From a virus, in IMG/VR virus record IMGVR_UViG_3300032304_000554, positions 1 to 43,960 of that record: a stretch of 43,960 nucleotides of DNA. One strand, written 5' to 3'. A program made the position numbers and the translations under genes. Under the pieces are notes generated by a model, which searched no databases, was not told where the DNA came from, and was given only the letters and a program-made list of their open reading frames with translations. Numbering within the stretch: position 1 is the stretch's first letter; each line of letters opens with the position of its first letter. This document shows, in pieces, positions 41,278-43,960 of the stretch.

Positions 41278-41362
41278 CAGACACACAAGTACCGCAAGCA
41301 GTACATAGGCTCAACAATTCAAGGCAAAATAATGCGGTTTTTGGCTCGCGCAGGCTAATATC

Positions 41363-41455
41363 ATGCGCTCTATACCTGGTCAATCTTGGTCACAGGGACG
41401 GAATTCCTTGCCGCAAAGGTACTCAGCAACTACCCATTTGGATGAAGATCGCTAA
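41363..41455 (+). CDS. Doubtful 30-codon open frame
   Basis: ATG at 41363 to TAA at 41453-41455, a 30-residue peptide rich in Ser, Gln and Arg (starts MRSIPGQSWSQGRN, ends THLDEDR). There is no Shine-Dalgarno sequence before the ATG. It lies at the start of the structured stretch. It may be a leader peptide, or simply an open frame in non-coding DNA, which I find more likely. Confidence 0.15.
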   Translation: MRSIPGQSWSQGRNSLPQRYSATTHLDEDR

Positions 41456-41550
41456 CTAAGCCCTGCGATTGTGCTGTTTGAAGATAATAAAAAGGCAAAA
41501 AGAGAGGGGAGAACCCTCACGTAGACAAATATGATAGCGTATATTTGTTT

Positions 41551-41603
41551 ACCGCCGTTGTAATAAGACGGAGCTCGTGGTACCGGACAACCGCCACTGT
41601 AAT
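41551..41603 (+). repeat. Direct repeat pair ACCGCC-nn-TGTAAT
   Basis: ACCGCCGTTGTAAT (41551-41564) and ACCGCCACTGTAAT (41590-41603) match at 12 of 14 bases with a 39-nt period. Both GCC halves take part in predicted stems. Confidence 0.6.
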
Positions 41604-41614
41604 GCTCTAACGCT

Positions 41615-41700
41615 GTGTGATATTGTGCAACTCGGATAATATTCAATTTCTTAGCCCTTGTCTGGGCTAAGTGTGACTGAACAATCTGGATAATGTTAAA
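41615..41700 (+). repeat. Direct repeat pair GTGTGA...GGATAAT
   Basis: GTGTGA, 13 nt, GGATAATATTCAA (41615-41646) and GTGTGA, 11 nt, GGATAATGTTAAA (41671-41700). The two copies flank the strong CTTAGCCC hairpin. They could be protein-binding sites or parts of a folded RNA. Confidence 0.5.
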
Positions 41701-41745
41701 ACTGCTTCGCAGTTAATAGTTCCCTTATATTAAGAAAGAAGAAAA

Positions 41746-41772
41746 TTGCATTGAGCGTAAGCGAAAATGCAA
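41746..41772 (+). other. Hairpin TTGCATT/AATGCAA with GTAA inner loop
   Basis: A 7-bp stem (41746-41752 with 41766-41772) encloses GC-GTAA-GC, a possible GNRA-type tetraloop. Its last two bases (41771-41772) are also the first two of the next hairpin, so the two structures compete slightly. Confidence 0.4.
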
Positions 41773-41789
41773 GCGAGCTAGGCTCGCTT
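41771..41789 (+). terminator. Terminator-like hairpin before the late gene pair
   Basis: AAGCGAGC-TAG-GCTCGCTT is a perfect 8-bp, GC-rich stem with a 3-nt loop, followed by TCT; with the last stem bases the plus strand reads TTTCT. The T-tract is short for an efficient intrinsic terminator. Its place, directly before the late promoter box and after the early operon and structured stretch, fits a boundary between early and late transcription units. Confidence 0.55.
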
Positions 41790-41792
41790 TCT

Positions 41793-41800
41793 AATAAATA
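41793..41800 (+). promoter_or_regulatory. Late promoter AATAAATA for the 514-aa gene
   Basis: CTAATAAATA begins three bases after the terminator-like hairpin and ends 29 nt before the ATG at 41829. It is the only plus-strand copy noted of the box that precedes minus-strand structural genes, and it implies that the two following genes are late (virion or assembly) genes. Confidence 0.65.
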
Positions 41801-41828: not shown

Positions 41829-43373
41829 ATGAAATTACAAACAATATTAACAGAACAACATCTTGAATATTCAAGAACAATCCTCAGAGAGAGCTGTGAT
41901 GGGTTAACAACTTATCAAAGAACTATTGTAGAAGGAATTTACAAAGACTCTTTGCCTCTTATTGAGGCTACTCTAACAGCAGCACAAATAGAACAACTGT
42001 TTGGGGAAGTAGAAAAATCAGCAACTGCCGGCGGTGGTAATCGAACAGGGCTAGGTAAAGGTGTTGATGCAGCCAAAGCCGGCGTCGATGTGGTGAAAAA
42101 AGCCGACGAAACTATTAATAAAATTGGTAAGTGGCTACAAAATACAACTCCTGTTAAAGGGTTTGATCAGAAGTTCGAAGATTTAAAAACAAAGATAGGT
42201 ACAAAGTTTCCAGAATTAGACAAAAGACTCACAGCCATGGGCACATGGGCTAAAGAAAATCCAGGAAAAACTGCTGCCATTGTGGGTGTACTGACTACCA
42301 TAGCTTCATTTGCAGGCGGTCCAGTTGGCGGTGCTATCGCTGGTCAAATACTTAGAGGTGCAGTTGAATTACTCAAAGGCGAAAAACTTTCCACAGCTAT
42401 AGGCAAAGGTATTAAAACAGCAGCCTACGGTGCTATGGCAGGATGGTTACTTGATGGAATAGGCGATTGGTTAGAAGGATTGCGAGCCGAAGTTGTGCCG
42501 TATGACAAAGTCCCCGGACTTGTAGGCATTGATGTAGGGGTATCCAAAACTCTAAGCATGGGCGGCACCACTGTCAAGGATACCATATACAAAATTATTG
42601 TGCCCGAAGACCTATCCGGAACCATGATGGCAACTGTCAATGCAGCCAAAGGTGGAGATGTTGACGCATTTAATCAGCTACTTGATTTTTCAAGAAATTT
42701 TAGTCGAGCAGATTATCTAGCCGGTAAGGGCATAATGGATGCTGCTGCCAAGACACTTGCACTTCAGAATGATGCATTCTTACAAGGCATGACACAGGTC
42801 AACAATCTTATCACAGCCGCTGCACAGGGATCAATCGCAGGCAAGATGACTGCCAGCGATGTTAAAGTTGACGGCAAACCAGTTGAAGGCGAAAAAACGC
42901 CAGCAAAAGAAAGTTGGGAACCAAATTATTATGTTCAGACTAGACCATTAACAGAAGGTCAAGTTGGATACATGTTCAAGCAAATACAACTACTCAACGA
43001 AGGTCCAATGGATTGGATCAAAAAGAAAGCCACTAACCTAACTACCAAAGTCACCGCGGACAAGCTAATGAGTGCTTGGAAGAAAGCTGGATCACCAACT
43101 GACAGCAATGAAGTAGCAGAGTTTCTAAAAGGTCAAGGTATAGTAGATGATGCCGTGGCTCAAGTTTATCAAACAATGAAACTTCCAAGTCCAGGTACTG
43201 CCGAGCAGCCTGCTCCGGAAGCATTATCTTATAAACAAGTACTTGATCTAGTTAACAAATTACCAGTTGATCGAAAAGTTCGATTAATGAAGTTCATAGA
43301 AAAAACAAAAAACACTGAGCCTACAGCCAAAGGCACTGTAGATAACAGCAAAACAAAACCAACAACAGCATAA
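41829..43373 (+). CDS. Candidate capsid-packaged internal protein with protease sites
   Basis: 514 aa, family not recognised. Seen: the start M-K-L-Q-T-I-L-T-E ends in L-T-E, the I/L-x-E pattern cut by the T4 prohead protease gp21, and resembles the capsid-targeting peptide MKTYQEFIAE of T4 internal proteins. More such sites occur early (T-I-V-E, L-I-E) and near residues 374 and 390 (P-L-T-E-G, L-L-N-E-G-P). Residues about 147-175 are a Gly/Ala-rich hydrophobic segment that could enter a membrane, with a second near 197-212. A helical C-terminal module follows (A-W-K-K-A-G-S-P-T-D-S-N-E-V). Late promoter upstream; a similar gene follows at 43386. Inference: packaged, processed and possibly ejected with DNA. 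The ribosome site (GGAT) is weak. Confidence 0.55.
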   Translation: MKLQTILTEQHLEYSRTILRESCDGLTTYQRTIVEGIYKDSLPLIEATLTAAQIEQLFGEVEKSATAGGGNRTGLGKGVDAAKAGVDVVKKADETINKIGKWLQNTTPVKGFDQKFEDLKTKIGTKFPELDKRLTAMGTWAKENPGKTAAIVGVLTTIASFAGGPVGGAIAGQILRGAVELLKGEKLSTAIGKGIKTAAYGAMAGWLLDGIGDWLEGLRAEVVPYDKVPGLVGIDVGVSKTLSMGGTTVKDTIYKIIVPEDLSGTMMATVNAAKGGDVDAFNQLLDFSRNFSRADYLAGKGIMDAAAKTLALQNDAFLQGMTQVNNLITAAAQGSIAGKMTASDVKVDGKPVEGEKTPAKESWEPNYYVQTRPLTEGQVGYMFKQIQLLNEGPMDWIKKKATNLTTKVTADKLMSAWKKAGSPTDSNEVAEFLKGQGIVDDAVAQVYQTMKLPSPGTAEQPAPEALSYKQVLDLVNKLPVDRKVRLMKFIEKTKNTEPTAKGTVDNSKTKPTTA

Positions 43374-43385
43374 CAAGGACCAGAA

Positions 43386-43960
43386 ATGAAAATTCATGAA
43401 ATACTAGTAGAAAGCCAGGACCTTCAGGAAGGTCCTATCCTAAACAAGATTGGATCAGCAGTAGGCAAAGGTGTTGGCGCATTGGCCAAAGGTGTTGGCG
43501 CTGTAGCCGGCGGAGTAGCTGGACTTGGTGGTGCTATCAAGAGAGGTTTCCAAGCAGGTAAAGCAACGGTGGCGGGTGCAGGTGACGAGCCAGCAGCAGG
43601 TGGTACAACTCCGGCAGCAGGCGCAAAGCCAGGAGCAGCACCAGCAGCAGGTGGTACAACTCCGGCAGCAGGCGCAAAGCCAGGAGCAGCACCAGCAGCA
43701 GGTGGTACAGCACCGGCAGCAGATGATGCCGCAACAGCAGCAGCAGGTGGTACAACTCCAGCAGCAGGCGGTACAACTCCAGCAACTCCAGCACCAGCAG
43801 CAGGCGCGAAGCCAGGAGCAGCACCAGCAGCAGGCGCAAAGCCAGGAGCAGCACCAGCAGCAGGTGGTACAGCGCCGGCAGCAGCACCAGCAGCAGGAGC
43901 AGCAGCGGGTACAGCATATGCTCAAGCACAAAAAGCTATTCAATCGTTACAACCAAAAGA
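43386..43960 (+). CDS. Partial second capsid-targeted-looking protein with Ala/Pro/Gly repeats
   Basis: The frame is open from ATG 43386 to the window end (191 codons, no stop). AAGGA lies 6 nt before the start and 12 nt separate it from the 514-aa gene. Seen: M-K-I-H-E-I-L-V-E at residues 1-9, then L-Q-E-G-P at 13-17, both with the I/L-x-E form of prohead-protease sites. A glycine-zipper segment (residues about 20-62: G-K-G-V-G-A repeated) follows, then about 110 residues of low complexity built from P-A-A-G-G-T-T-P-A-A-G-A-K-P-G-A-A units. A helix begins at A-Y-A-Q-A-Q-K-A-I. It resembles its neighbour in N-terminus and hydrophobic Gly/Ala segment. Probable role: internal virion protein. 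The C-terminus lies outside the window. Confidence 0.6.
   Translation, partial: MKIHEILVESQDLQEGPILNKIGSAVGKGVGALAKGVGAVAGGVAGLGGAIKRGFQAGKATVAGAGDEPAAGGTTPAAGAKPGAAPAAGGTTPAAGAKPGAAPAAGGTAPAADDAATAAAGGTTPAAGGTTPATPAPAAGAKPGAAPAAGAKPGAAPAAGGTAPAAAPAAGAAAGTAYAQAQKAIQSLQPK
43590..43910 (+). repeat. Coding tandem repeat, 51-nt unit
   Basis: Two copies of a 51-nt (17-codon) unit lie at 43590-43640 and 43641-43691, as far as I can read identical. They are followed by partial and rearranged copies to about 43910. The unit encodes an Ala/Pro/Gly/Thr linker. The near-identity at DNA level suggests recent duplication or recombination, and length is likely to vary between relatives. Confidence 0.8.

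Follow-up and report, generated by a model that had tools for sequence, protein, structure and literature searches.

Two adjacent genes at the right end of a viral contig, which we call P1 and P2, probably encode late, head-packaged internal proteins of the T4 type, as judged from sequence and by analogy. The stretch of DNA analysed (the window) is an IMG/VR virus record of 43,960 bases. On the + strand at its right end, P1 and P2 come after two recombination genes of the T4 gp46/gp47 type, a GIY-YIG gene resembling SegE (a PF19835 match), a structured RNA and a late promoter. The gp46 gene has its nearest matches in three giant phages, Phosso, PA5oct and Atu_ph07. The initial annotation had described P1 and P2 as two late genes; P1 is complete, but the contig ends inside P2.

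41829..43373, + strand: P1, open reading frame of 514 amino acids, proposed head-packaged pro-protein
43386..43960, + strand: P2, basic Ala/Gly/Pro-rich protein, incomplete at the contig end

In the mechanism we favour, both proteins would be made late and be destined for the prohead core. An N-terminal peptide of 9-14 residues, M-[KR]-hydrophobic-x-E-[ILF]-[LI]-x-E, would direct them into the prohead during its assembly, in the manner of the CTS of T4 IPI, IPII and IPIII, and the phage's own gp21 protease would then cut them after (L/I)xE. The mature parts would stay with the DNA, and some would probably exit with it at infection and, by analogy, may be injected into the host.

P1 and P2 begin with short peptides that end in LxE

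41829..41855, + strand: P1 residues 1-9, MKLQTILTE, proposed capsid-targeting start; E9 kept in 40 of 43 aligned relatives
43386..43412, + strand: P2 residues 1-9, MKIHEILVE, proposed capsid-targeting start; family consensus M[RK]INEIL[TV]E(S)

An N-terminal peptide of ~10-19 amino acids that ends in (L/I)xE is a trait of T4-type internal (CTS) proteins, and it is present in both families. For P1 this is evident from the conservation of E9, and for P2 from the open reading frames that come next after P1, of which 43 of 47 begin with the start motif M[KR]x..[LIFM]xE and whose start consensus is near-invariant by position counts. In T4, IP propeptides of 10-19 residues target the proteins to the core, with CTS residues 4 and 7 serving targeting and residues 8 and 10 serving processing (PMC9026906). 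Among P1 relatives, which a profile search of IMG/VR detected at 325 loci, the tag glutamate stands at position 8, 9, 12 or 14. One 805-amino-acid relative (L131:5326-7743) has an extra N-terminal domain, with the tag MKVTEILVES still at its start.

Several features pointed out in the initial annotation are borne out here. The two starts read MKLQTILTE-Q at 41829 and MKIHEILVE-S at 43386, each of nine residues with a final LxE; further LxEG sites exist as LNEGP at residues 389-393 of P1 and LQEGP at residues 13-17 of P2; and Gly/Ala-rich hydrophobic segments occur in both proteins (KD maxima at residues 149-167 of P1 and 33-51 of P2). The late promoter that it placed before the pair is likewise real, as detailed below.

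Candidate gp21 sites are conserved and clustered

41883..41894, + strand: candidate gp21 cut LRE21/S22 in P1; LxE[AGS] in 39 of 43
41925..41936, + strand: candidate gp21 cut IVE35/G36 in P1; LxE in 36 of 43, LxE[AGS] in 32 of 43
41958..41969, + strand: main candidate propeptide cut LIE46/A47 in P1; LxE in 43 of 43, A in 41 of 43
42270..42473, + strand: P1 residues 148-215, hydrophobic Gly-zipper segment
42948..42959, + strand: candidate gp21 cut LTE376/G377 in P1; kept in 39 of 43
42993..43004, + strand: candidate gp21 cut LNE391/G392 in P1; 28 of 43; INE/GPLD aligned in the PA5oct relative
43047..43187, + strand: P1 C-terminal helical domain, residues 407-453, common to the PA5oct protein (profile match; pLDDT 87-89 over 410-449)
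43422..43436, + strand: candidate gp21 cut LQE15/G16-P17 in P2; LxEGP within the first 45 amino acids in 40 of 47
43431..43559, + strand: P2 residues 16-58, Gly-zipper amphipathic segment

T4 gp21 cuts after L/I-x-E, and its propeptides are 7-65 amino acids long (PMC9026906). Conservation was counted over 43 aligned P1 proteins, and a column was kept if [LIVMF]xE occurred in at least 15 rows. Just seven columns (E9, E21, E35, E46, E143, E376 and E391) pass this threshold, and that of E143 has LxE in 17 of 43 rows without a following A, G or S. Because the residue after the first LxE is Q, N or H in most of the 43 relatives, and not A, G or S, this site looks more like a targeting label than the main cut, which would be better placed at E46/A47.

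With such cuts P1 would behave as a polyprotein, releasing a start of ~46 residues, a hydrophobic, Gly-rich part of ~34 kDa (residues 47-376, predicted 34.4 kDa, with predicted Gly-zipper hydrophobic helices), a 15-amino-acid linker and a basic part of ~13 kDa (residues 392-514, predicted 13.4 kDa, pI 9.5). Cutting of P2 would release a basic, Gly-rich body with a pI of about 10 (10.0 in a full-length relative). Between 43587 and 43890, P2 is built of near-repeats of GAKPGAAPAAGGTTPAA; this low-complexity middle varies strongly among relatives, while both ends are conserved.

An AlphaFold model of P1 is poor (mean pLDDT 60, pTM 0.34), and Foldseek searches with it in PDB and BFVD brought up nothing meaningful, so we make no claim about its fold. 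Candidate cuts 376 and 391 lie within a very-low-confidence stretch predicted to be disordered (331-405) and cut 46 falls where a short linker of low confidence joins predicted helices, positions that in the model fit the expectation for accessible sites.

In a comparison of 127 gene families conserved among six large relatives, the scaffold has seven conserved sites of the LxE[AGS] type, and capsid protein, portal and P1 have four each; no other family reaches the count of P1. The portal is in this group although T4 gp20 is listed as uncleaved (PMC9026906). Relative to conserved glutamates P1 ranks highest of these four, with four of 11 at LxE[AGS] against a background of 5% (binomial p 0.0015, uncorrected for choosing the best). 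Applied to T4, the same scan ranks gp22 and gp23 high by LxE[AGS] and recovers IPII and IPIII through the start motif. LxE could also be kept for helix structure instead of cutting.

A late promoter and, in relatives, head genes adjoin the pair

41343..41790, + strand: structured RNA 5′ of the promoter; RF01718 covers 41343-41479
41793..41800, + strand: T4-type late promoter element AATAAATA, 5′ of P1

On the + strand of the window, position 41793 is the only one with the sequence NATAAATA; the - strand has three copies, each of them upstream of a structural gene. In 49 of 59 relatives this sequence lies within 150 nucleotides 5′ of P1, compared with 5.1 in shuffles (maximum 11). Late expression, another trait of T4-type internal proteins, is thus indicated for P1 by a promoter element. 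The structured RNA is a neighbour outside the P1/P2 protein system. It is the Polynucleobacter-1 RNA (RF01718), a phage-borne RNA kept 5′ of P1 (relatives L003-L012, alignment A4), whose conserved structured region extends to ~430 nucleotides; the late promoter follows closely on its terminal hairpin. Of the 57 predicted pairs, 31 have compensatory changes on both sides, and most of these lie 3′ of the portion that the Rfam model covers.

The window stops short of the gp20/gp21/gp23 cluster, and head-gene synteny was read from relatives. In a 152 kb relative (G003), P1 and P2 lie directly upstream, on the same strand, of a presumed tape measure gene, gp20, core-like genes, gp21, a scaffold gene and gp23; Pfam matches PF07068 and PF07230 correspond to gp23 and the gp20 portal, and the scaffold-like gene is in the same cluster. 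The gp21 gene (PF03420, Peptidase S77) is present in 12 of 15 large P1 contigs, ~8-11 kb from P1 in those where coordinates were compared, and the other three may be fragments. The combination of gp21 with a T4-type capsid and portal in one genome, characteristic of genomes with T4-type internal proteins, is thereby found in G003. None of the bacterial genome contigs searched held P1 relatives, and therefore they offer no clue to the host.

This neighbourhood, shared with portal, gp21, scaffold and capsid, might also suit prohead core (scaffold) proteins like T4 gp22, gp67 and gp68, which shape the head, are degraded by gp21 and mostly leave without being injected. Such proteins resemble P1 in their many conserved LxE[AGS] sites and their place in the same gene cluster; LxE density in P1 equals that of the scaffold, and a small portal-adjacent PA5oct protein also begins MKINDIITE. 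We nonetheless consider a core role unlikely. Whereas gp22-like scaffolds are acidic with cut sites along the whole chain (the scaffold here has seven), the conserved sites of P1 are confined to 9-46 and 376-391, leaving 330 residues uncut, its overall pI is 8.8, and the parts of P1 and P2 are neutral to basic. Moreover, a separate gp22-like scaffold and a core-like gene are present.

Adjacency to the presumed tape measure gene in G003, together with the Gly-zipper segments, could instead mark P1 and P2 as membrane-penetrating tail proteins related to tape measure or baseplate, their LxE likeness being structural. This is very unlikely, since tail proteins are not characterised by conserved LxE[AGS] sites or CTS-like starts, both of which the control families lack; a very weak tail-associated lysin profile match of P1 (E 0.09) was discarded as noise.

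A relative of P1 carries a mass spectrometry label in PA5oct

Head-packaged internal proteins should be found in virions, and one detectable relative of P1 exists in a cultured phage. Searching 406 PA5oct proteins with the 43-sequence P1 profile gave a sole match above threshold, QCG76108.1 (EST35_0227; E 3.8e-6, next best 0.09), in two collinear segments. By hhalign (82%), LLNEGPMDW of P1 is aligned with IINEGPLDF, and HMMER aligns pLiEasLtadqikqlF with TIIEAFISPGEIVNIF, a segment of only 2.8 bits; QCG76108.1 keeps INEGPLD and IIEAF. An earlier P1 HMM (11-sequence scale, filters on) had missed this protein, and hhalign with the 11-row alignment gave 15%.

The record labels QCG76108.1 a 'structural protein, ESI-MS/MS'. 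The adjacent QCG76107.1 and PA5oct proteins starting VKIKDILVES and MKINDIITEG bear the same label. Since the list includes enzymes such as ligase and FtsH, and contaminants are possible, detection alone is no proof of head location. The start motif is weakly and not significantly associated with detection (5/12 versus 89/406, Fisher p = 0.098). Elsewhere in PA5oct, two adjacent MS-annotated proteins (L178:678-2100, - strand; PA5oct 260677-262099) have the tag-like starts VRLNEINLIE and MKILEFNLTE and a HELxHALD metalloprotease-like motif.

Searches of Atu_ph07 and Phosso for P1 gave no match, nor did direct tblastn of P1 against 50,697 phage records, in agreement with the initial annotation's remark that no T4 sequence relative is recognisable.

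Related starts occur on other proteins

Within the 44 kb contig a degenerate start pattern matches the P1 and P2 starts only, with 0 reverse controls, and the further starts of this type that the initial annotation proposed to look for are carried by other families in relatives. The tag is common to at least four families besides P1 and P2. The conserved motif occurs in six of 180 orthologous families versus 0.77 expected (maximum 3 in 200 column permutations), an excess of ~8-fold; single-genome raw counts are less striking (14 versus 4.7, 11 versus 3.4 and 10 versus 2.6).

One such family joins the tag to a capsid sequence. In G011, MKIQEIIE-SATAGATSAAS... is the sequence of an 86-amino-acid protein, and the gp23 of this phage contains KYLSE-SATAGATSAGN...; the ten letters ESATAGATSA are identical in the two. 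Variants in G012 and G002 (81-86 amino acids) carry the gp23 stretch that follows LSE/LAE. Because the identical stretch follows gp23's own LSE/LAE, the tag glutamate sits at a capsid-type junction. By inspection, we take the gp23 LSE site to be at the position of the known T4 cut LTE/A; pairwise alignment places it differently. T4 gp23 is cut at LTE/A (PMC9026906). In G005, a small MKIRELLE-YASGGSTSAGS protein occupies the place of P2. Basic proteins of 81-86 amino acids with MKIxEIIE followed by (S/T)ATAG(A/S)T are encoded in G011 (L172:6294-6551, - strand) and also in G002, G012 and G005, and 94 IMG/VR loci encode relatives of the G011 protein.

The notion that the start motif is just a helical N-terminus often found in charged proteins with a short life, and has nothing to do with packaging, accounts for the few chance ORFs per genome that match its loose form, but it is highly improbable given the excess over column permutations, the near-invariant P2 consensus and the fusion of the tag to a gp23 junction.

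Not all tagged proteins in the wider list are conserved cases; some are chance matches. We trust P1, P2, MKTFKEYLTE, MKIxEIIE-SATAG and MKIxDIITEN, and a nucleotidyltransferase less so. Candidate head cargo in G011, all on the - strand and all with tag-like starts, comprises a DUF6267 protein (KWDGNP; L161:3055-4149), a 370-amino-acid protein of unknown function (L161:8449-9558), a nucleotidyltransferase (L163:11490-12206) and a cytidylyltransferase-like protein starting LELFEA (L172:8900-9943). A broader proposal is that one short N-terminal label on a set of unrelated proteins (P1, P2, MKTFKEYLTE, the nucleotidyltransferase, the gp23-junction mimic and others) marks head cargo genome-wide, and that P1 is a gp21-processed polyprotein giving membrane-active and basic parts in the head. 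We advance it tentatively, at somewhat less than even chances.

Comparison with known packaged proteins

P1 and P2 share with T4 IPI, IPII and IPIII a short start peptide with K2, a hydrophobic residue, E, a hydrophobic pair and xE, as well as (L/I)xE cutting sites, neutral to basic mature parts and gp21 in the genome. Their tag is usually one residue shorter, and P1 is much larger, has internal conserved sites and adjoins the head gene cluster. The mature parts are unrelated in sequence to those of the T4 IPs; such homology is not required, as T4 IP mature regions themselves diverge (PMC9026906). QCG76108.1 of PA5oct resembles P1 in its C-terminal domain, INE/GPLD and IIE/AF..EIV..F, but has 399 amino acids, only profile-level similarity and a gene that is not beside gp46. 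Like P1, the ejection proteins of the giant phages phiKZ and SPN3US are large and packaged, with propeptides cut by a gp21-type protease; their cut motif differs, being of the SxE/AxE type. T4 Alt, likewise large and packaged in the head, is reported to undergo processing by gp21 at its N and C termini (PMC9026906), whereas no ADP-ribosyltransferase or other domain was recognised in P1.

The initial annotation had read the pair as head-packaged, gp21-cut proteins that are injected into the host and are perhaps membrane-active or anti-defence. Targeting and cutting are well supported by conservation, gp21/22/23 synteny, the promoter and the MS-annotated PA5oct relative, from which we infer them. 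The suggested activities find no support beyond the Gly-rich hydrophobic segments; nothing significant emerged for P1 in Pfam or PHROGs, including any enzyme or anti-defence domain.

To judge from these sequence comparisons, additional proteins may be loaded into the head and trimmed there in hundreds of giant T4-like phages, most of them uncultured, perhaps for delivery to the host. If so, the packaged cargo of these phages would be readable from a start label and conserved protease sites. Many 'hypothetical' genes would then become candidates for proteins delivered at infection, and a cultured relative of the PA5oct type makes this testable.
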